Positions 2,288 through 28,332 of a DNA stretch of 64,000 nt are shown piece by piece. The DNA is taken from contig JACRJI010000008.1 in assembly GCA_016235665.1 (NCBI GenBank), positions 248,001 through 312,000 on the forward strand, given 5' to 3'. A program made the position numbers and the translations under genes. Every line of letters starts with the position of its first letter. The first letter of the stretch is position 1. The DNA comes from a candidate division TA06 bacterium (GTDB lineage Bacteria; Edwardsbacteria; AC1; EtOH8). The notes under the pieces were generated by a model, which did not search any database, was not told where the DNA came from, and saw only the letters and a program-made list of their open reading frames with translations.

Positions 2288-3643
2288 TCATATCTTATCA
2301 AGTTTTTTAACAACCTTGCTTACCGCCCTTTTTAAAAATTCATCCCAATATTCGCATATGCCCGATTCTTCCGGCCGGGCATACCTTTTCCTTACAGTGG
2401 GGCATCCTCCCATACAAAGCGGAAGCAGCTTACAATTTCTGCATATTTCATTATCTATTGGGCTATCTATGAACCATTTTGAAATATTATGATTGGGGCG
2501 GAACGTACCGCCGGAGATAACGCCGCAGTCCTCGTTCTTTCCCAAGGCAGAAGCGCATCTGTATACCTTGCCTCCCGGACCCAGGATCCAGGACCCCATG
2601 AAATCGGCCGAACAATACCTTCCCCTTAAGGGAATCAAGCCGATATAACTTTTATAATCAAAATTCTCCTCGGCGTATTTGGCGGTTCCGGTGACTTCGC
2701 TGAAGTGATTTTCCACTTCGATATAGTCCTTGCCGTCCAGTGATTTCTTGTCCGTCCGCCAATCTATGCAAGTAGTGCTAAAATCCTTTAAATGTCCGGC
2801 CCGGACGTTCACGTTATCGCCCATCATCCATTTTTGTTCCAGCAATTCGTAGGCGCTCTCCTTGGTCTCCTTATCAATATGTATGCGCACAGTAACTTTT
2901 TCAAACACATCTTTCGCTATTATTATCGCTTCCTTAATTTTGCCGAAGGTAGGCCCGCCGTTCTTTAGCATCCTGCGGCGGTTGTGTATTTCTTCTGTAC
3001 CGTCCAGCGTAATTTGAATATGAATGACCCCCAGTTCCTTAAGTCTTTCCGCCCTTTCCCTGGTCAGCAAATATCCGTTGGTTATTATATGGGCGATATA
3101 TTCGATACCGTGTTTTTTGCTCAATTCCATGAGTTTCAAGCTCAATTCCTCAACTATCGCATACCCCAGCAAAGGCTCCCCGCCATACCAGTTGACGAAC
3201 AATTGAGGCGGCTTTATTGTTTTTATTTGTTCATCAACAAATTCCACAATCCTGTCAATATCTTCTTTACCCATTGTGCTGGCATACGGCTCCTCAAAAC
3301 AATAGGTGCACTTGCAATTGCAGGCCATCGTTGGCAGCACAGTTATGGCAAGGCTTTTGGCATTGAACCTGCCTTCCATTATCCTTAGTTTTACCAGGTC
3401 AAGCTCGTTAATTCTCTTATCTAAAATGTAACCATTGTTTACCATTGTTTCGAACAATTCGCCATTATCACTTTTTTTATTGGCATTGGGATCTTTTAGA
3501 ATAGCAGACACCTGTTCTTTGTCTTTATCCAGTAGTTTTGCCATAGCACCGGTATAGGTATTGTATAAGATCGTTACCTTTTCAATGTTAAATGTATAGT
3601 TATAAAATGACGGTTTATAACAAATATTGTCCGTATTTTCCAT
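2288..3643 (-). CDS. Radical SAM/SPASM peptide maturase, 451 aa
   Basis: CNCKCTYCFE (about residue 108) is the radical SAM CxxxCxxC 4Fe-4S motif. NWYGGEPLLG (about 152-161) is the GGEP SAM-binding motif. The C-terminal third has the SPASM pattern: Cys in GRYCSADF and YRCASALG, then CRNCKLLPLCMGGCP and a final GICEYW, which would hold auxiliary clusters. The first 90 residues carry a YNTYTGAMAKLL segment of the kind seen at the N-terminus of peptide-modifying SPASM enzymes, plausibly a leader-binding domain. Known relatives install thioether or C-C crosslinks in ribosomal peptides. The partner here is very likely the 39-residue peptide downstream (2077-2196). Confidence 0.88.
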   Translation of the reverse strand: MENTDNICYKPSFYNYTFNIEKVTILYNTYTGAMAKLLDKDKEQVSAILKDPNANKKSDNGELFETMVNNGYILDKRINELDLVKLRIMEGRFNAKSLAITVLPTMACNCKCTYCFEEPYASTMGKEDIDRIVEFVDEQIKTIKPPQLFVNWYGGEPLLGYAIVEELSLKLMELSKKHGIEYIAHIITNGYLLTRERAERLKELGVIHIQITLDGTEEIHNRRRMLKNGGPTFGKIKEAIIIAKDVFEKVTVRIHIDKETKESAYELLEQKWMMGDNVNVRAGHLKDFSTTCIDWRTDKKSLDGKDYIEVENHFSEVTGTAKYAEENFDYKSYIGLIPLRGRYCSADFMGSWILGPGGKVYRCASALGKNEDCGVISGGTFRPNHNISKWFIDSPIDNEICRNCKLLPLCMGGCPTVRKRYARPEESGICEYWDEFLKRAVSKVVKKLDKI

Positions 3644-4076
3644 GTTGCCTCACTTTTATTGGTTATTTATTTTATGTACAGATAATAGGTACTCTTATAT
3701 GCCGCTGGGCGATTCATTCTACTACGCTATCTACATAGGCTTCCTCCTGTGTCTGCCACAGGCATACTACGGCGGACAGGTCTTCGGGCTCCTGCATCGC
3801 CCCTACGGTTACCATTCAATGTTCTGTATTTCCCGTTAACATGTACCACCGGGCGATTGTCCAATCGCCCCTACGGATTACCATTTTCCATTCACCGTTC
3901 CTAGTTAGTCAACTGGATAGCGGCTACTGGATAGACTTTCAGCATCAGATTTTTTAACTGTTTACTTTTAACATATTTGGTCAAATACTATAGAATATCT
4001 TTATTGCTTGGGAATTATTAAACTACTATGAGAATAACAAAACAGAAGTATTAGTACTATTTTAGTAGGTGATTAT
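3644..4076. other. Intergenic region with REP-like repeats
   Basis: No credible gene in 433 bases. It holds a perfect palindrome GGGCGATTG-TC-CAATCGCCC (3851-3870). A split version has GGGCGAT (3707-3713) pairing with ATCGCCC (3796-3802). Both are followed by CCCTACGG and a similar TTACCATT tail. This resembles dispersed REP-type repeats. The low end (4028-4049) carries the left arm of the inverted repeat around the 4077-4412 gene. Confidence 0.6.
3707..3887. repeat. Two copies of a REP-like palindromic element
   Basis: The two copies share ATCGCCCCTACGG followed by TTACCATT, at about 3796-3816 and 3864-3886. Each is preceded by a complementary GGGCGAT arm. The second is a compact 20-base hairpin; the first is interrupted by about 80 bases that contain their own short inverted repeats. 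No transposase is present in the window. Confidence 0.55.
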
Positions 4077-4458
4077 TTATTCGGGAATATACCTGGAGAA
4101 ATACCATGTTCCATTCGTGCCGTATGAAGACCCGTCGTAATAAAACAGTCCTGAATAACGTTTAATTGGCCCGGCTGTATCAGCAGTCAAATAATAATAA
4201 CCTGCCGGTGGACGAAGTTCCCAGGACAAGCCAAAACCACCATTGATAGCTGCAACAGTGCTGCCATAAGTGCCGCCGCCGCATGTGATGGTCCAGCCGT
4301 TTAAAGCATCAGTATTGAAGATTGCAATTCCGTTCACCCAACTGGGCTCGGCGTATAATAAAACGGAACTCAGTATAACAACTGCTATTACCAATGCAAT
4401 TATTTTATTCATTTGAATACTCCTTTTGTTTATTTCACTTCTATTTAGTTATTCTCAT
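4028..4458. repeat. Inverted repeat pair bracketing the 4077-4412 gene
   Basis: The 22 bases at 4028-4049 are matched by the reverse complement of 4437-4458 at 20 of 22 positions (shared start ATGAGAATAAC, shared end AGAAGT). The arms stand 27 bases beyond the stop and 24 bases before the start codon of the enclosed gene. Confidence 0.8.
4077..4412 (-). CDS. Small exported protein A, 111 aa (paralog family)
   Basis: MNKIIALVIAVVILSSVLLYAEPS is a typical Sec signal peptide. The mature part is about 90 residues, rich in Gly, Tyr and Thr. Its ELRPPAGYYYLTADT segment resembles the strand of carboxypeptidase-regulatory/transthyretin-like folds and the GYY segment of five other small genes nearby. 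It is the most divergent member together with the next one and lacks the C-terminal HPxHN motif of four of them. AAAGGAGT-like sequence precedes the start. The gene sits inside a private inverted repeat. The function is unknown. Confidence 0.7.
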   Translation of the reverse strand: MNKIIALVIAVVILSSVLLYAEPSWVNGIAIFNTDALNGWTITCGGGTYGSTVAAINGGFGLSWELRPPAGYYYLTADTAGPIKRYSGLFYYDGSSYGTNGTWYFSRYIPE

Positions 4459-4563
4459 TATGTTGTAATTCCCTATATACCCCGCACTTCAGGCAATAAA
4501 ACCTTGGCCGTATATCACTCCTTCGTGTTGGGTTTGTAATTTATGTTAACCTATATTCTGTAT

Positions 4564-4972
4564 TGTTAGCAATAAAAAGCACATTTTTATTATGAGTTAT
4601 TCCGTTGGTGGTTCAAAATTAACGTTACCACAATCAGTTGTATAAGAGCCATTGTGGTAGTACGTGGAAACAGAAACCAATGAACCCTGATACCTTTTTG
4701 TGGCAACTAAAGTATAATAACCAGCATCGGGATAATAACCCTGTACTTCAAAATAGCCATTACTACTAGTTACCCCCGAACCACAACTGGGTTGACCGCT
4801 TATAGTAATTGTATAGCCAACCAATGGTACGGAACCATTAGTAAAAGCATAACCTTTAAATACGACGACAGCAGCTAAACCTGTTGAGACCATTAATATG
4901 ATCGACAGGACAGCAAGTAATGCAATTCTTCTCATTTTTCCCCTTTCGTTTATTGGCTTTTTATTGCTAACA
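4564..4972. repeat. Inverted repeat pair bracketing the 4597-4935 gene
   Basis: TGTTAGCAATAAAAAGC (4564-4580) is perfectly repeated in inverse orientation at 4956-4972. The arms lie 16 bases beyond the stop and 20 bases before the start codon. The sequence is unrelated to the repeats around the neighbouring genes. Confidence 0.85.
4597..4935 (-). CDS. Small exported protein B, 112 aa (carboxypeptidase-regulatory-like fold)
   Basis: The signal peptide MRRIALLAVLSIILMVSTGLA is followed by one domain with the classic order of a regulatory-like beta sandwich: VVVFKGYAFTNGSVPLVGYTITISG, then TSSNGYFEVQGYYPDAGYYTLVATK. The SSNGYFEV / GYYTL pair is the signature that links it to proteins at 5502, 5954, 7835 and 8369. 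There are two Cys (PSCGSG and TDCGNV), which may form a disulphide. It is enclosed in a perfect 17-bp inverted repeat. It is probably periplasmic or surface exposed; the role is unknown. Confidence 0.72.
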   Translation of the reverse strand: MRRIALLAVLSIILMVSTGLAAVVVFKGYAFTNGSVPLVGYTITISGQPSCGSGVTSSNGYFEVQGYYPDAGYYTLVATKRYQGSLVSVSTYYHNGSYTTDCGNVNFEPPTE

Positions 4973-5017
4973 TTTTTTTAGGAGGATCCGCTTATGATGT
5001 GATTGGGCAATGCCCCC

Positions 5018-5359
5018 TCACTGCAATAGCTCCAGATTATACGCCGCCGCGCTCTGCGCATCCCCGGCATAAAGCTTCTGCCCGGCCAGGGTGATCTCCC
5101 AAAGCTCCTGATACAACAGGCCCATCTTAAGCCTAAGCTCCCGCTCCTCCCCGCCCCGGAACCTTTGGGCCAGGGCCTTGTCCACCTGTTTTTGGGTCTC
5201 CTTTACCTTTGACAGGAACCCCTGCGGCAACAGACCGGCCGGTTCCAGCCCATCCATTGTGGCCACCAGCATGGTGTAATCGGCTTGAGCCAAAAGATCG
5301 GCGGCTTCCAGCCTTTGAGCGGTAAGGATCAGTTCCTCGGAAGTTATGTTGGTTAGCAT
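5018..5359 (-). CDS. Hypothetical cytoplasmic protein, 113 aa, helical
   Basis: I chose the ATG at 5359 (MLTNITSEELILTAQRL) because AGGAG lies 4 bases upstream; an ATG four codons earlier lacks a ribosome site. The product is almost entirely helical and charged (for example FLSKVKETQKQVDKAL), without signal peptide or Cys. It could be a FliT/FlgN-like or other small helical chaperone, but that is only a resemblance in size and composition. Its GC-richer codon use contrasts with the AT-rich exported genes on both sides. Confidence 0.5.
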   Translation of the reverse strand: MLTNITSEELILTAQRLEAADLLAQADYTMLVATMDGLEPAGLLPQGFLSKVKETQKQVDKALAQRFRGGEERELRLKMGLLYQELWEITLAGQKLYAGDAQSAAAYNLELLQ

Positions 5360-5501
5360 TCGGCTCCTCATGGTAACTATGATACTGAATACTGAATAGT
5401 GGTAATTGATACTGGCTACCTAGCAGGGTCTACTGGGCAGTACCTGCTGAATAGCGTATTGTTCTCTGGAAAATTTTTCGTTAATACCGGTTTCCTAAGT
5501 T

Positions 5502-5870
5502 TCATTGCAGATAGTTGTGAAGAGGATGAGTAGTGGTATGCAGATAGGTAGTGCCAATATGGACCACGTTTTCCCCGTCAAAGTAAAAGTTCACATGGTC
5601 CCAGCCGTGGCTGTCGCGGATACACAGGTTGTAATAGCCGGCAGTAGTGATGTAATAATCATGTATTTGGAAACATCCGGAGTTGTAAGTGCTAGTATTG
5701 TAATTAAGGTACAGCCAATCGCAGGAATACAGATAAACTATTGCTCCGTCATGCCCAGAATCGCCCAGGAAGACATAACCATCGCAAAAAAGAGGATTGG
5801 CCATGGAATCGGTGGCAATGGCAGTTGTTGCCAGGGCCGACAGCATTACTATGAGAAATATATTTTTCAT
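5502..5870 (-). CDS. Small exported protein C, 122 aa (paralog family, HPxHN tail)
   Basis: An N-terminal signal peptide (MKNIFLIVMLSALATTAIA) precedes a mature domain with FLGDSGHDGAIVYLYSCDW, TTAGYYNLCIRDSHGWDH and the ending THPLHNYLQ. Closest in order and spacing to protein D (5954-6337): GHxGAxVxLYSxDWxYL and GYYNLCIxDxxGWxHxNFYxDG are shared. Four Cys could pair. The Shine-Dalgarno is weak (AAAGTGAAAA). Unlike the neighbours, I find no convincing inverted repeat around it. The function is unknown. Confidence 0.7.
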   Translation of the reverse strand: MKNIFLIVMLSALATTAIATDSMANPLFCDGYVFLGDSGHDGAIVYLYSCDWLYLNYNTSTYNSGCFQIHDYYITTAGYYNLCIRDSHGWDHVNFYFDGENVVHIGTTYLHTTTHPLHNYLQ

Positions 5871-5927
5871 TTTTTCACTTTTTTTAATATTTTTCGGTTT
5901 GTCGGATAATAATTAATAATACAAATT

Positions 5928-6381
5928 ATAAAGCTGGAAAAGAATCAGTTATTTTATGGCAGATAATTGTGTACGGGATGTTTGGTAGTGTGTAGATACA
6001 AGTTCCCCACATTGGTCATGTAGTTGCCGTCATAGTAAAAATTATAATGTTCCCAACCGTCACCATCAATGATGCACAGGTTGTAGTATCCCGCGCCTTC
6101 GGTGCACTTATTTACCAGAAAATATCCCGGCGAGGAACTGTCCGGATAGCTGACTGTGGTTGAGTAGTGGTCCAAGTATGTCCAATCGGCAGAGTACAAT
6201 TTTACCGTGGCCCCGTTATGCCCGGTTGATCCCAAAAATAAGCGGCCATAACAGATTGCAGGCAAAGCATAAGAAGTAGTAGTTAATCCGATGACCACCA
6301 AAGCGATCAATGCTGCGAGGATTAAAATCCGTTTCATTTTTCTCCTTGTTTTGATTGTTTATGATTCTTTTCCAGCTTTAT
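5928..6381. repeat. Perfect 20-bp inverted repeat bracketing the 5954-6337 gene
   Basis: ATAAAGCTGGAAAAGAATCA (5928-5947) recurs exactly, inverted, at 6362-6381. The arms are 6 bases beyond the stop codon and 24 bases before the start. A consensus-like promoter lies just outside the right arm (6408-6436). No target-site duplication is visible outside the arms. Confidence 0.9.
5954..6337 (-). CDS. Small exported protein D, 127 aa (paralog family, HPxHN tail)
   Basis: MKRILILAALIALVVIGLTTTSYA is a signal peptide; AAGGAGA precedes the start. The mature part has CYGRLFLGSTGHNGATVKLY, then GYFLVNKCTEGAGYYNLCI and the ending KHPVHNYLP. The order is that of a single regulatory-like/transthyretin-like beta sandwich with Cys added. 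It is the only member with a good sigma-70 promoter directly upstream, and that promoter is outside the inverted repeat that encloses the gene. Probable secreted or surface protein; no known function. Confidence 0.75.
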   Translation of the reverse strand: MKRILILAALIALVVIGLTTTSYALPAICYGRLFLGSTGHNGATVKLYSADWTYLDHYSTTVSYPDSSSPGYFLVNKCTEGAGYYNLCIIDGDGWEHYNFYYDGNYMTNVGNLYLHTTKHPVHNYLP

Positions 6382-6407
6382 TTCTCTCAATTTCAGTTTC
6401 TTGACCG

Positions 6408-6436
6408 TTTATATTACAATACAATCTCGTATTCAA
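6408..6436 (-). promoter_or_regulatory. Sigma-70-type promoter for the 5954-6337 gene
   Basis: On the minus strand TTGAAT (6436-6431), a 17-base spacer, then TATAAA (6413-6408). The predicted start near 6401 puts the right inverted-repeat arm (6362-6381) inside the 5' leader and leaves the promoter outside the repeat-bounded segment. Confidence 0.6.
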
Positions 6437-6560
6437 ATATGCCCGGCAATAATTCACGGATATCATTATCATTAACAACAGATATAGCGGAAATGTTGGA
6501 TGGCAATTCACGTTCCGGTTAAGTGATCTATGATTCCAATATTGACTAACAAACAGACAA

Positions 6561-7781
6561 TCAATATCCTTTTCTCCCCAATTTACTTTTACTTAATATT
6601 ATCTTAAATAATTCCCCCACTTTTTCTTTCCCATCATATAACACTCCGTTGTAAAAGGCGACAGGCATTCCATAGGTCATCATCCCGGTTTTTTTTTGCA
6701 AATCCATCAGCTTTTGATAATTACTGGCATTCGTTATGTCCGTATATCTTATCCTTTGTTTCATTACTTTCTTTGTATTTGGCAAACTGTTTTCAATAAT
6801 TTCTCTGCAATCATCGCAATTTGGTGCGTAAAATAGAATAATCTCATTTTTCAGCACAGTAATCATATCGCTTTTATCTGTGACCAGCATAGACCTGCTT
6901 ATTACGCTATCGTTTCCAGCTACGCGTATATATATATCCACTGCAGTTGCTGTTTCCGAGTTACTTTCAATACTGCTGTCTATGGGTGATTTAATGAAAT
7001 CAAATACCTTTGCTGTGCTATCATAGCTCGCCTGCCAAGTTTGAAGTCCCTTACTGCCTGGGTTAAGTATAAATACACGGCCCTTGTTTCTTTTGTCATC
7101 AATCCCTTTCTCTCCGTTACTTGTGATTATCAGCAGCGGTTTATCATCTTTATAACTTACCACTAATTCATTCTCGTCCTCAATGCTCATATCTGAAAGT
7201 ACTACGAATATATCGGTTCCTTCCTTATAACTAATGAATTCATTAAATATGCTTTTTGTAACCGGTAGCACTTTGAGTTCTTTGGCATGTTCCTCTAATA
7301 AAGGTGATTTGACCCTTATATCGGAAATCGCACTCGTGATTACATACTTTACACCATTCAATTCATACCGAACAGATCTATTCGTCAGCGGATTACCGGC
7401 ATAAAACAGGTTGCAATTAACCCAGGGTAGACCAGCTGTTTTAACATTCATTATTTCAGGGAGTAATTCACCTTTTAATTCAGCCCATCCCACGCCAACT
7501 GCTGCTATATTCATTTTACTTAATTGTTGTAATATAAGATTATTTTTTGTCTTGTTTCCCAATAAATCCATATTATTTCCGTTTAATAACACCGGACCGA
7601 TTGTTTTATAATTATAACTAACCGTGTGTATTTTAGCCAAACCACCCATATCCCTGCCACCGCATTGGCATGATGAAACCTGCCCATTTATCGGTGCTAT
7701 GGCGATAACGTTCACATTTTTAGCCCATGAGTTGCAGATAGTTAATAATAAAAGAATCGTGAATAGTTTAGTATTGATCAT
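6561..7781 (-). CDS. Exported UshA-like protein with C-terminal thioredoxin-like domain, 406 aa
   Basis: The signal peptide MINTKLFTILLLLTICNSWA is followed by INGQVSSCQCGGRDMGGLAKI. This matches the pattern of exported metallophosphoesterase-like (UshA/5'-nucleotidase superfamily) proteins that carry CxC and GGLA(R/K). A body of about 230 residues follows with FVVLSDMSIEDENELV and IITSNGEKG, so some metal ligands may be lost. From about residue 315, IILFYAPNCDDCREIIENSLP is a thioredoxin-like strand with a CxxC motif, then GMPVAFYNGVLYDG resembles the cis-Pro loop. It is embedded among the Cys-containing small exported proteins, so a redox or folding role for them is a reasonable guess. No enzyme activity can be assigned. 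Confidence 0.65.
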   Translation of the reverse strand: MINTKLFTILLLLTICNSWAKNVNVIAIAPINGQVSSCQCGGRDMGGLAKIHTVSYNYKTIGPVLLNGNNMDLLGNKTKNNLILQQLSKMNIAAVGVGWAELKGELLPEIMNVKTAGLPWVNCNLFYAGNPLTNRSVRYELNGVKYVITSAISDIRVKSPLLEEHAKELKVLPVTKSIFNEFISYKEGTDIFVVLSDMSIEDENELVVSYKDDKPLLIITSNGEKGIDDKRNKGRVFILNPGSKGLQTWQASYDSTAKVFDFIKSPIDSSIESNSETATAVDIYIRVAGNDSVISRSMLVTDKSDMITVLKNEIILFYAPNCDDCREIIENSLPNTKKVMKQRIRYTDITNASNYQKLMDLQKKTGMMTYGMPVAFYNGVLYDGKEKVGELFKIILSKSKLGRKGY

Positions 7782-7801
7782 TTTTAGAAACTCAGTCTTT
7801 T

Positions 7802-8278
7802 TAAATTCAACAACCCAACAGATTATTTAATTAACTATTGGCACATGTTGTGTGAGGGATGTGCGCCGCTCTGGAGAACAATATTGTCGAATACCGCTCC
7901 GGTATATACACAAGTGGAATAGAAATTAAGCACATGAGCCCACTTATTACCATATGTTACGCACAGTGAATAATAACCTGCCTGATCCTCGGGATAATGG
8001 GCATCTATATCAAAACGCCCATCCGAAGTTGTAGTGGTATTGGGCCAATAAGTATCACCGCACCAACCCCCATCCGAATGTTCGCAATGCACGGAGGCAC
8101 CAGAGACAACAACTCCATTGTCCCATACAATTCCGGCGACAATCCAATTCCCTGCAAAAGCTGACGTCACTGGGCAGGCAACTATTGCAATCGCCATGAT
8201 AATTAAAATAAGTCTTTTCATTTTTGTCCTTTTTGTCTTTGATTGTTTGTTGATAGAACTGTTGGGTTGTTGAAATTA
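7802..8278. repeat. Inverted repeat pair bracketing the 7835-8221 gene
   Basis: TTCAACAACCCAACAG (7806-7821) recurs exactly, inverted, at 8259-8274. With one mismatch the arms extend to 20 bases (7802-7821 and 8259-8278). The arms lie 13 bases beyond the stop and 37 bases before the start. A one-mismatch half copy, CTGTAGGGTTGTTG (8786-8799), occurs upstream of the next paralog at 8752. Confidence 0.85.
7835..8221 (-). CDS. Small exported protein F, 128 aa (paralog family, HPSHN tail)
   Basis: The signal peptide (MKRLILIIMAIAIVACPVTSAFA) is followed by GIVWDNGVVVSGASVHCEHS, GWCGDTYWPNTTTT, DGRFDIDAHYPEDQAGYY and the ending AHPSHNMCQ. It is a near duplicate of protein G (8369-8752): long blocks are identical, including SGASVHCEHS and YPEDQAGYY. 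Cys residues at matching positions suggest conserved disulphides. It lies inside its own inverted repeat. The fold looks like one regulatory-like beta sandwich; the function is unknown. Confidence 0.75.
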   Translation of the reverse strand: MKRLILIIMAIAIVACPVTSAFAGNWIVAGIVWDNGVVVSGASVHCEHSDGGWCGDTYWPNTTTTSDGRFDIDAHYPEDQAGYYSLCVTYGNKWAHVLNFYSTCVYTGAVFDNIVLQSGAHPSHNMCQ

Positions 8279-8368
8279 CAGTTTAATATAAGACTAACGC
8301 TCTTTTCGTTTTACTCTGCTTCATAACCTGCCTATATCCAATTAGTCACTATCTGATTGTTGGATTAA

Positions 8369-8752
8369 TCATTGACACGTATTATGAGATGGGTGTGCCC
8401 CGCCTTGGAGGGAAACATTCCCAAGATTTCCACTGGTTATCATATTGGAATAAAAGTTAAGCACATGGGCCCGCTTGCTGCCATATATTATACACAAATT
8501 ATAATAACCGGCCTGATCCTCCGGATAGTGGGCAGATATATCAAAACATCCGTCCAAAGTTGTAGTGGTATTGGGCCAATAAGTATCACCACACCAACCC
8601 CCAGCCGAATGTTCGCAATGCACGGATGCACCTGACACAACCATACCGTTGTCATATACAGTTCCATAGCATATCTCGCTGCTTGCCGAGATTGTTGCAG
8701 TGACGCCAACAGTAATTATTGCTGCCATGATGGTAAAAATATGTTTGTTCAT
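8369..8752 (-). CDS. Small exported protein G, 127 aa (duplicate of F)
   Basis: Signal peptide MNKHIFTIMAAIITVGVTATISA. The mature part repeats protein F almost block for block (CYGTVYDNGMVVSGASVHCE, GWCGDTYWPNTTTT, SAHYPEDQAGYYNLCI) and ends AHPSHNTCQ. The strongest difference is in the last third (SNMITSGNLGNVSLQ). It shares the upstream CTGTxGGGTTGTTG element with F, but no inverted partner is seen on its 3' side. It looks like a recent tandem duplication. A heptamer tandem repeat lies upstream at 8831-8872. Confidence 0.75.
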   Translation of the reverse strand: MNKHIFTIMAAIITVGVTATISASSEICYGTVYDNGMVVSGASVHCEHSAGGWCGDTYWPNTTTTLDGCFDISAHYPEDQAGYYNLCIIYGSKRAHVLNFYSNMITSGNLGNVSLQGGAHPSHNTCQ

Positions 8753-8830
8753 TGTCTTTTTCCCTTTTGTGTGTAATTTATAGTACTGTAGGGTTGTTGT
8801 TGGTCATTTAATATGGCTCGAAACCTTTTA

Positions 8831-8872
8831 GTGTTTAGTGTTTAGTGTTTAGTGTTTAGTGTTTAGTGTTTA
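8831..8872. repeat. Tandem heptamer GTGTTTA x6
   Basis: Six perfect consecutive copies of GTGTTTA (42 bases) lie between the histidine kinase stop (8884) and the start of protein G (8752). Perfect short tandem repeats change copy number by slippage, so this may be a variable spacer in the G leader. Confidence 0.9.
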
Positions 8873-8883
8873 TTTTTAATTGT

Positions 8884-10410
8884 TCATCGTTTCAGCACTT
8901 CGTGCAGTTTCAAACTCAATTTGTGAAGACTGAACGGCTTCTGCAAAAACTCCACCCCATGGCTCTTGATCAGCGGCCGGATGCTCTCGTCGCTGTAGCC
9001 CGAGGCGAACAGGGCCTTTAGTTCCGGCTTTTGTTTTTTAAGGATCATGTAAAGCTCCCAACCCGAAAGACCCGGCATGATCATATCGCTCATTAAAAGA
9101 TCTATCTTCCCCTGACGCTGGGCAAACATCTCCAAAGCTTGTTCGCCGTTGCGGGCGGGAAGCACCTGGTATCCCAGACTGGTCAAAAGCTGGATCTCCA
9201 TCTCCCGAACTACATCCTCGTCCTCCACCAGCAGCACCACCCCGTGGCCGAACCGGATGTCGGTCTGCTGTTGGGCGTGCCGGCCCTTGCCCTGATCGGC
9301 CGCCGCCGGCAGGAATATCTTGAAGGTGGTGCCCCGGCCCTTTTCGCTGTAGACGTAGATGTGTCCCTGGTGCTGTTTGACGATGCCGTAGACCACCGAA
9401 AGACCAAGGCCGGTGCCTTGGTCCTTGGTTTTGGTGGTGAAGAATGGCTCGAATAAATGTTTTTGGGTCTCGGCCTCCATCCCGGCCCCGGTGTCGGTGA
9501 CTGTGATCAGGGCATAGCGCCCCGGCTCCACCTCGGGATGGGTTTTGGCATAGTTATCGTCAAGGAATTCCTCTCTGGTGGCGATGGAGAACAGGCCTCC
9601 CTGCTCCATGGCATCCCGGGCGTTCACAGCCAGGTTCATCAGCACCTGCTCCATCTGGGACTGATCGGCCATCACCAACGGCAGGTTGCGTCCCAGGGTG
9701 ATCTCCACCTTGATCCTTTCTCCCAGCAGGCGGGAGATCATCCTCTGGAATTCCGTAACCAGGGGATTCAGGTCCAGCACTTTGAACTCCGCCTTGTTCT
9801 TCCTGGCAAAGGTCAGCAGTTGCCGGGTCAGCACAGCGGCCTTTTCCCCGGCCAGAATGATATCCATGATCCGCTGATGCCAGGGATGTCCGGCCCCGGC
9901 CTCGGTCAGCATCATGTCGCCCGAGGTCAGGATCACCTGGAGGATGTTATTCATGTCGTGGGCCAGCCCCCCGGCCAGATGCCCCACCGCTTCCATCTTC
10001 TGGGCCTGAAGCAGTTTTGCTTCCAGTATCTTATTGTCCGTATTGTCTATCACAGACTGATAGCACGCCAGCAGCTTTCCCTCGCCGTCCCGCACCTGGC
10101 CGTGATAGGCCTGAACTGAGATTACTTTGCCGTCCTTGCGCTGGAGCCTGCATTCGCAGTCCAAAAAGCCGTTCTGCCGGGCCAGCAGCATCTGCTGGAC
10201 CATCCGCTCTTTTTCCGCCGGGATCCAGTGGGGATAGGGCGGCCTGGAATCCTGCATGTCGGCCAGATGGTAACCAGTGACCGCTTCCCATGCCGGGTTG
10301 ACATAGATCACCCTGGAATCATCCGGATGGCAGACCATCAGACCCTGGGGCATGTGGTCCAGGAAACTCTGTCCCAGCATTGTCATGTCCAAGTGGTGTT
10401 CGGCAGACAC
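8884..10410 (-). CDS. PAS hybrid histidine kinase with C-terminal receiver, 508 aa
   Basis: A PAS domain occupies about residues 14-130 (DSRVIYVNPAWEAVTGY). The H-box is GHLAGGLAHDMNNILQ (His near 152), the N-box NARDAM, and the G-boxes DTGAGM and GTGLGLSVVYGIVKQH. A receiver domain fills about 390-505 (LLVEDEDVV, then MSDMIMPG with the phospho-acceptor Asp, then LQKPFS). There is no membrane segment, so it is a cytoplasmic sensor. The start is a GTG at 10410 with AAGGA about 10 bases upstream. No output regulator lies next to it; phosphate could move from the receiver to a partner encoded elsewhere. Confidence 0.88.
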   Translation of the reverse strand: MSAEHHLDMTMLGQSFLDHMPQGLMVCHPDDSRVIYVNPAWEAVTGYHLADMQDSRPPYPHWIPAEKERMVQQMLLARQNGFLDCECRLQRKDGKVISVQAYHGQVRDGEGKLLACYQSVIDNTDNKILEAKLLQAQKMEAVGHLAGGLAHDMNNILQVILTSGDMMLTEAGAGHPWHQRIMDIILAGEKAAVLTRQLLTFARKNKAEFKVLDLNPLVTEFQRMISRLLGERIKVEITLGRNLPLVMADQSQMEQVLMNLAVNARDAMEQGGLFSIATREEFLDDNYAKTHPEVEPGRYALITVTDTGAGMEAETQKHLFEPFFTTKTKDQGTGLGLSVVYGIVKQHQGHIYVYSEKGRGTTFKIFLPAAADQGKGRHAQQQTDIRFGHGVVLLVEDEDVVREMEIQLLTSLGYQVLPARNGEQALEMFAQRQGKIDLLMSDMIMPGLSGWELYMILKKQKPELKALFASGYSDESIRPLIKSHGVEFLQKPFSLHKLSLKLHEVLKR

Positions 10411-12106: not shown

Positions 12107-12198
12107 AAATATTACAAATAACTAATTATATAAGTTATTGCATAACAATCTATTAACCCACTATGACATAAATGTCAGGCTAATTGACATTTATGTCA
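12085..12198. promoter_or_regulatory. Three palindromic sites, candidate enhancer (UAS) for the sigma-54 activator
   Basis: TGACAT-N2-ATGTCA occurs at 12164-12177 and 12185-12198, and GACAT-N2-ATGTC at 12085-12096. Centres are 21 bases (two helical turns) and about 80 bases apart. They lie about 145 to 245 bases upstream of the predicted sigma-54 start point, the normal distance for activator sites. The outermost site is inside the last codons of the activator gene (Asp-Ile-Asn-Val), and the innermost forms the terminator stem. The two outer copies can also form a 14-bp hairpin with a 7-base loop. Confidence 0.6.
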
Positions 12199-27534: not shown

Positions 27535-28332
27535 TTAGTGGATTTCGCGGGTAAGGTTTTCTTCGGACTTCAGTTTTTCCAGGGTCTGCTGGGCCGCCAG
27601 CTGTTCGGCTTCCTTCTTGGTGCCGGCCCGGGCCAGCCCGTAGCGCTTGCGGGAGATTTTCAGCTCCACCTCAAAGGTCCGGTGGTGCTCTGGGCCGGCG
27701 TCCGATTTAAGGGTGTAGCGGACGGGGCGGTCATCCCGGCGGGACTGCATGTATTCCTGGAGCAGGCCCTTGAAATTCTTGTAGGCCTCGTTGTTGGAAA
27801 GATGGATGATCTGCCAGAATAGCGTTTTTTGCAGAAATATCCTGACCGCCTTTAGGCCGGAATCCAGATAATAGGCCGCGATCAGCGATTCCATGGCATC
27901 GCAGAGTATGGAATCCTTGTAGCGCCCGCCGGAAGAAACTTCCTCCCGGGACATCTCCAGCAGTTCCCCCACTCCCAGTTCCTTGGCCAGCTTGGCCAAA
28001 ATCTTCTTACTGACCACCAGGGACCGGACCTCGGTCAGCTGGCCCTCGTCGTCCTTGGGCCTGGATGTGTAGAGGTATTCGCAGACCAAAAGACCCAGCA
28101 CCGAATCACCCAAAAGTTCCAGCCGTTCGTTGGAATCAATGTGGCGTCCGGCGGCCGAGCGGTGCTTAAGGGCCTGGAGAAAATAGTTCCGGTTCTTTAT
28201 CTTCCAACCCAGCCTCTGCCGGATCTTATCCAGCGCCTGCTGGCGTTCCGGGGAGAGTTTTTTGTCCCCGGCGCCGAATAACTTTTTAAACAATTGGATT
28301 CCAGGATTGATTTTGGAAATTTGACTTTTCAA
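27535..28332 (-). CDS. rnc: Ribonuclease III, 265 aa
   Basis: The catalytic domain has NERLELLGDSVLGLLVCEYLY (Glu and Asp ligands) and DAMESLIAAYYLDSG with the second acidic pair. A C-terminal double-stranded-RNA-binding domain (YKNFKGLLQEYMQ to AGTKKEAEQLAAQQTLEKL) follows. It processes rRNA precursors and structured mRNAs. An N-terminal extension of about 35 residues is slightly long for the family. It is placed directly after fabF, as in many bacteria where rnc follows the fab-acpP genes. Confidence 0.96.
   Translation of the reverse strand: MKSQISKINPGIQLFKKLFGAGDKKLSPERQQALDKIRQRLGWKIKNRNYFLQALKHRSAAGRHIDSNERLELLGDSVLGLLVCEYLYTSRPKDDEGQLTEVRSLVVSKKILAKLAKELGVGELLEMSREEVSSGGRYKDSILCDAMESLIAAYYLDSGLKAVRIFLQKTLFWQIIHLSNNEAYKNFKGLLQEYMQSRRDDRPVRYTLKSDAGPEHHRTFEVELKISRKRYGLARAGTKKEAEQLAAQQTLEKLKSEENLTREIH

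Follow-up and report, generated by a model that had tools for sequence, protein, structure and literature searches.

Pairing between the leader and the trailer of one and the same messenger RNA (mRNA) is already known in bacteria, from a handful of single mRNAs. In Bacillus subtilis, a 14-nucleotide (nt) interaction between the 5′ and 3′ untranslated regions (UTRs) of the hbs mRNA protects it against RNase Y (Braun et al. 2017, as cited in PMC7821165 and PMC8406224). In Staphylococcus aureus, the trailer of the icaR mRNA pairs with its own leader via an anti-Shine-Dalgarno UCCCC motif, and the pairing represses (Ruiz de los Mozos et al. 2013, as cited in PMC7821165). At the DNA level, short inverted repeats also flank invertible segments (invertons), for which PMC5903667 is a general reference. 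Here we describe a cluster of small exported-protein genes enclosed by inverted repeats, hereafter called arms, in a 64-kb stretch (the window) of contig C8 from a candidate division TA06 bacterium, together with the gene family to which they belong. A limited open-access literature search found no conserved, family-wide version of leader-trailer pairing with gene-private arms.

Inverted arms around a family of exported-protein genes

A scan of the full 64 kb for inverted repeats (spacing 100–900 nt; match +1, mismatch −2; score threshold ≥ 15) returned exactly four pairs and nothing further, while first-order Markov resamples of positions 3600–8900 contain an average of about 0.03 pairs scoring ≥ 14 each. 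These are the four pairs of the original prediction, made from the letters of the window alone, and they lie at the coordinates that it gave (Table 1), with arms 6–27 nt past the stop and 20–37 nt ahead of the start codon. Each pair tightly encloses one short minus-strand gene that encodes a signal peptide followed by about 90–105 further residues. The four brackets stand as predicted, but the homologous genes of the region number six (at 4077, 4597, 5502, 5954, 7835 and 8369), two of which, 5502–5870 and 8369–8752, are without a bracket of their own. A scan of positions 3600–9000 with Rfam covariance models gave no match at E ≤ 1.

Profile searches place the six genes in a family of 19 members, 13 in this genome and six in four sister-genus genomes, whose host phylum is Candidatus Edwardsbacteria, also called UBP2. 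In this genome the members are carried by contigs C8, C13 and C1, with 8 of the 13 on C8. A wide score gap separates the 19 members from all other profile matches; those in G090, G092, G001, G002 and G006, which are weak or parts of long proteins, were left out of the count. The presence of the family is patchy, with two genomes of the same genus lacking full members. A search of genome and viral contig collections with the GWTI subfamily found no relatives, and a search with the L030/L032 subfamily returned two known family records and one weak Pseudozobellia match (28% identity). AlphaFold2 applied to the family alignment predicts a signal helix and a β-sandwich (mean predicted local distance difference test score, pLDDT, 89.6). 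Among solved structures, the closest are transthyretin-like and carboxypeptidase regulatory domains, none of them with an E-value below 0.001, and the Pfam matches to CarboxypepD_reg, weak and below the cut-off, agree with this structure search. From the predicted fold, the members look like small secreted transthyretin-like proteins.

The leader of every member was compared with its own trailer, and complementary segments are present in 16 of the 19. The positions of the arms are conserved: the 5′ arm ends 20–46 nt ahead of the start codon, the 3′ arm starts 6–32 nt past the stop, and the Shine-Dalgarno sequence follows the 5′ arm, outside it and ahead of the start codon. Fourteen of the pairs are strong (12–22 base pairs (bp), one with a single-base bulge). 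The relatives from other genera (L028, L029, L030 and L032) have arms comparable to those of the window, but shorter (12–16 bp).

The arms are far better matched within genes than between them. The mean duplex energy of own pairs is −26.0 kcal/mol. Permuting trailers among members gives −13.9 kcal/mol (standard deviation 1.1), without a single case as low as the observed energy in 100,000 permutations; this strongly supports the earlier proposal that the arms were made or are maintained as pairs. Among paralogs within this genome, cross-pairing (−12.2) is close to the shuffle level (−11.7), compared to −24.6 for own pairs. The arms are private in the sense that the leader of a paralog pairs with its own trailer and, beyond shuffle level, not with that of another. 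The original prediction that arms differ between genes and match within them therefore holds for the pairing; the sequences are not wholly unrelated, however, as close relatives have arm sequence in common.

Co-variation among relatives, whose absence the prediction had listed in its conditions for refutation, is present: arms are alike in close homologs and diverged in distant ones, with pairing kept throughout. L025_11031 of this genome and L028_11184 of another genus, whose proteins are less than 50% identical, have the common core ACCAAA(A)GCAAAAGG, with one duplex reaching outward from it and the other inward. L026_9015 and L026_10575 have TGAATAAACTTA in common, with one compensatory G-C/A-U difference, and L030 and L032 have GAAAAGCAG in common.

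Such pairing is rare elsewhere in a control sample of about 1,200 other genes (408 + 806), drawn from sampled stretches and not from a genome-wide census. Two of the first 408 genes score ≥ 12, one through an A/T-rich wobble match and the other through a palindromic hairpin repeat. In the second sample (806 genes, 800 kb, three genomes) seven genes reach this score: three are in a GCCACAGAGACAC repeat, one is a gene flanked by palindromic repeats, one has a 5′ match that lies within the coding sequence, and the remaining two are weak. The other small exported proteins of the sampled stretches have no leader-trailer pairing. Because the private fit exceeds that of permuted trailers and other genes almost never show pairing, the arms are shown to be maintained as pairs, by selection within each gene, in five genomes.

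Pairing of mRNA ends or of DNA segments

Three readings had been offered for the brackets: mRNA panhandles, invertible cassettes and gene capture. The first is the best supported and the other two are disfavoured. Four facts point to RNA, none of them proof. First, in all 16 bracketed genes the start codon and the Shine-Dalgarno sequence adjoin the leader arm, and the assemblies hold a single orientation of gene relative to arms; the 5′ arms are A-rich (more A than T in 14 of 16) and the 3′ arms U-rich (35 A, 135 T), despite an A-rich spacer between stop and arm (122 A, 66 T). Second, four of the 16 have a terminator-like hairpin just past the 3′ arm, strong in L026_10575, L030 and L032 and weaker in L027, which would put these arms inside the message. 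Third, the predicted panhandle probability is 0.79–0.98 in all 16 folded transcripts, compared to 0.06–0.45 with the 3′ arm shuffled, and two window transcripts fold more stably than their shuffles (z of −3.6 and −2.6). Fourth, comparison of the 16 pairs found no recombination core common to the arms, and contig C8 carries no tyrosine or serine recombinase; those of the genome (six Phage_integrase and two resolvase domain genes) are on C10–C14. The constant orientation, the A-rich 5′ arms, the terminators past the 3′ arm and the lack of a recombinase on C8 thus favour a 5′-3′ panhandle of the mRNA over invertible or captured cassettes.

We infer that the arms act at the level of RNA, by pairing in cis, and that they stabilise. 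The ends of each message probably pair in a 5′-3′ panhandle, with mRNA stabilisation as its likeliest role. Each family gene would be a single-gene transcription unit with a private complementary leader-trailer pair of 10–22 nt, and pairing of the two segments would turn the message into a closed loop. Lying past the 5′ arm and ahead of the start codon, the ribosome-binding site would be left single-stranded, so that translation could go on. In a message that is small, abundant or long-lived, such a panhandle may keep both ends out of reach of end-dependent decay, the duplex shielding the 5′ end from the end-sensing RNase E/G, the leader from RNase Y cleavage and the trailer from exonucleases that act on the 3′ end. 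RNase Y (725 bits against TIGR03319) and RNase E/G are encoded in the genome, and RNase III within the window (27535–28332); RNase J was not detected in the genome. Stabilisation is our leading inference since hbs is the closest documented case, and a free Shine-Dalgarno sequence makes an hbs-like stabilisation likelier than an icaR-like translational block.

Several observations weigh against a panhandle. Two members, L026_10077 and L031_9694, pair weakly, over 10 bp only, and three (5502–5870, 8369–8752 and L028_9701) have no arms of their own. One pair is broken between L026_9015 and L026_10575 (C-A against C-G). G-U pairs are few in the arms (three within duplexes), and co-variation alone therefore cannot tell RNA pairing from DNA pairing. 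A simple scan shows no evident intrinsic terminator for most members, those of the window included. Finally, only some members have a clear −10 box immediately ahead of the 5′ arm; where −10-like boxes are seen, in few members, they lie 4–6 nt upstream of the arm. Sigma-70-like promoters are as frequent as in shuffles, and no placement of start sites is claimed.

The main rival of stabilisation is repression at the level of RNA, in which the trailer would pair with the leader, either in cis or after cleavage as a small RNA derived from the 3′ UTR, and so reduce translation or bring about cleavage by RNase III. The same complementarity would suffice, RNase III is encoded in the window, and icaR and OppZ are documented examples. 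Their duplex covers the ribosome-binding site, however, whereas here no trailer pairs with it: the 5′ arm ends 20–46 nt before the ATG, with the Shine-Dalgarno sequence outside. Moreover many arms have only 10–17 bp, and a duplex of this length is short for efficient RNase III cutting. We consider repression unlikely, though the most serious of the alternatives.

Recombination between the arms of an invertible DNA cassette would flip the gene relative to an outside promoter and turn its expression on or off. Perfect inverted repeats of 13–22 bp around single exported-protein genes do resemble invertible segments, in a genome with integrase and resolvase genes and with one XerD-like gene some 3 kb away from the C13 cluster. 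However, the arms hold no core that one recombinase could recognise, and C8, the home of 8 of the 13 members in this genome, has no such enzyme. In the assemblies no member was found inverted relative to its arms, neighbours keep one direction, and the paired arms drift gradually along with protein relatedness. Inversion is quite improbable. Mobile or captured cassettes, with the arms as terminal inverted repeats or as scars left by gene capture, are more doubtful still: the members are clustered and patchily present, but one element family should have common terminal repeats, whereas here the repeats are private and the two arms of a gene change in concert, and the brackets showed no transposase, common boundary or target duplication. 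An assembly or amplification artefact, conceivable since the records of the relatives are metagenome-assembled genomes, is practically dismissed by the same layout recurring in five genomes and in one gene family only.

Beyond stabilisation of single messages by a panhandle, it is conceivable, as a more tentative proposal, that the whole secreted-protein family carries an obligatory private self-closing mRNA tag, with constraint on pairing and not on sequence, such that the message of each paralog circularises only with itself. If true, this would be a family-wide closed-loop mRNA architecture in bacteria, possibly tied to export or local translation.

Features of the window and repeats at other loci

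Table 1. Family genes and arms in the window, listed by gene.
Feature	Position	Strand	Remarks
5′ arm (leader) of gene 4077–4412	4437..4458	−	20/22 with 4028–4049; ends 24 nt ahead of ATG
Small exported protein gene, 111 amino acids (aa)	4077..4412	−	Signal peptide and predicted transthyretin-like/CarboxypepD_reg-like fold
3′ arm (trailer) of gene 4077–4412	4028..4049	−	27 nt past stop
5′ arm of gene 4597–4935	4956..4972	−	17/17 with 4564–4580
Small exported protein gene, 112 aa, transthyretin-like family of 4077–4412	4597..4935	−	Family profile search
3′ arm of gene 4597–4935	4564..4580	−	Inverted-repeat scan
Family member without own arms	5502..5870	−	Directly after 3′ arm of 5954–6337
5′ arm of gene 5954–6337	6362..6381	−	20/20 with 5928–5947
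Small exported protein gene, 127 aa, family of 4077–4412	5954..6337	−	Family profile search
3′ arm of gene 5954–6337	5928..5947	−	6 nt past stop
5′ arm of gene 7835–8221	8259..8278	−	19/20 with 7802–7821
Small exported protein gene, 128 aa	7835..8221	−	CarboxypepD_reg E 6.7e-4, below cut-off
3′ arm of gene 7835–8221	7802..7821	−	Inverted-repeat scan
Tandem paralog of 7835–8221 (68% identical), without own 3′ arm	8369..8752	−	Family profile search
Diverged 5′ arm of gene 8369–8752	8786..8799	−	13/14 with 3′ arm of neighbour 7835–8221

Between the leader of 5954–6337 and the trailer of 5502–5870 there is a match of 8 bp only. For the tandem pair, a two-gene message of 8369–8752 and 7835–8221 would likewise be bracketed; a leader arm that is kept and a first copy without a trailer arm fit duplication of a bracketed unit followed by loss. 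A short tandem repeat of TTTAGTG units is present at 8832–8875, upstream of gene 8369–8752. Around the armless member L028_9701 there are ACTTTCTCTT...AAGAGAAAGT repeats (L028 9543–9564/10324–10345), and similar ones surround the member of G009 (L029 9484–9504/10338–10358).

Two further minus-strand genes accompany the cluster. Adjoining it is a Radical SAM/SPASM enzyme (2288–3643) resembling the maturases of ribosomally synthesised and post-translationally modified peptides (TIGR04334, 250 bits, below the cut-off of 600). Between family members lies a 406-aa exported protein (6561–7781) with a weak match to UshA-like PCGU (seleno)proteins (NF041198, E 4.7e-7).

Repeats of other kinds enclose genes in the sampled stretches. 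The exported gene of L086 was rejected as a bracketed case, its 5′ match being within the coding region, and the other bracketed genes of the samples were set aside as dispersed repeats, palindromic hairpins or A/T-rich wobble matches. In a transporter-like gene (L028 6971–8518, 515 aa), leader and trailer are complementary through A/T-rich wobble matching (score 16.9), which probably reflects a degenerate dispersed repeat. The palindrome around GACATAAATGTC recurs as inverted pairs at several loci in two genera (window 12164–12198; L026 8740–8858; L031 13020–13120) and is possibly a dispersed element. At L042 9973–10455, a 134-aa gene that we take to resemble a DUF559-type endonuclease lies between two copies of the palindromic hairpin CCCCTTCTCTT...AAGAGAAGGGG. 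A small gene at L083 6818–7394, presumably akin to IS200/RAYT-type transposases, is enclosed by palindromic repeats. Nested inverted copies of a GCCACAGAGACACAGAGGC-like repeat are dispersed in this genome (L090 5424–5742 and 6514–6538; L087 around 7009–7611).

Comparison with known systems

Leader-trailer pairing is here a conserved and fast-rewritten trait of one gene family, in several genera of a phylum that has seen little experimental work, if any. With this family, closed-loop mRNAs in bacteria can be put to a natural comparative test, and further cases may be found on its model, by looking for gene-private complementarity rather than for a sequence motif. Should stabilisation be confirmed, the arm pairs would be candidates for portable elements that stabilise mRNA.

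Type I toxin mRNAs of the hok kind fold back 5′-3′, and like them the present genes are small, with long-range pairing of the ends; however, the products here are secreted β-proteins of 110–130 aa and not small membrane toxins, and no antisense RNA was identified. In the processing stalks of pre-rRNA each RNA is enclosed by its own inverted repeat, and a private inverted repeat for each RNA is found here as well, but the bracketed RNA is an mRNA and many of the duplexes are short for RNase III. Invertons have in common with these loci the short inverted repeats around a segment of a few hundred bases, and differ in what is missing here, namely a common recombination core, a recombinase on the contig and, in the assemblies, an inverted copy. 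With icaR the loci have in common the pairing, here predicted, of trailer and leader within the same mRNA and the presence of RNase III, but the duplexes of the present family, long and private, leave the Shine-Dalgarno sequence free. The likeness to hbs consists of a short leader-trailer duplex, here predicted, within one mRNA and of RNase Y in both organisms. Whereas hbs is one gene with one duplex, the stabilisation proposed here would concern 16 or more homologous genes, spread over five genomes of another phylum and every one with arms of its own.

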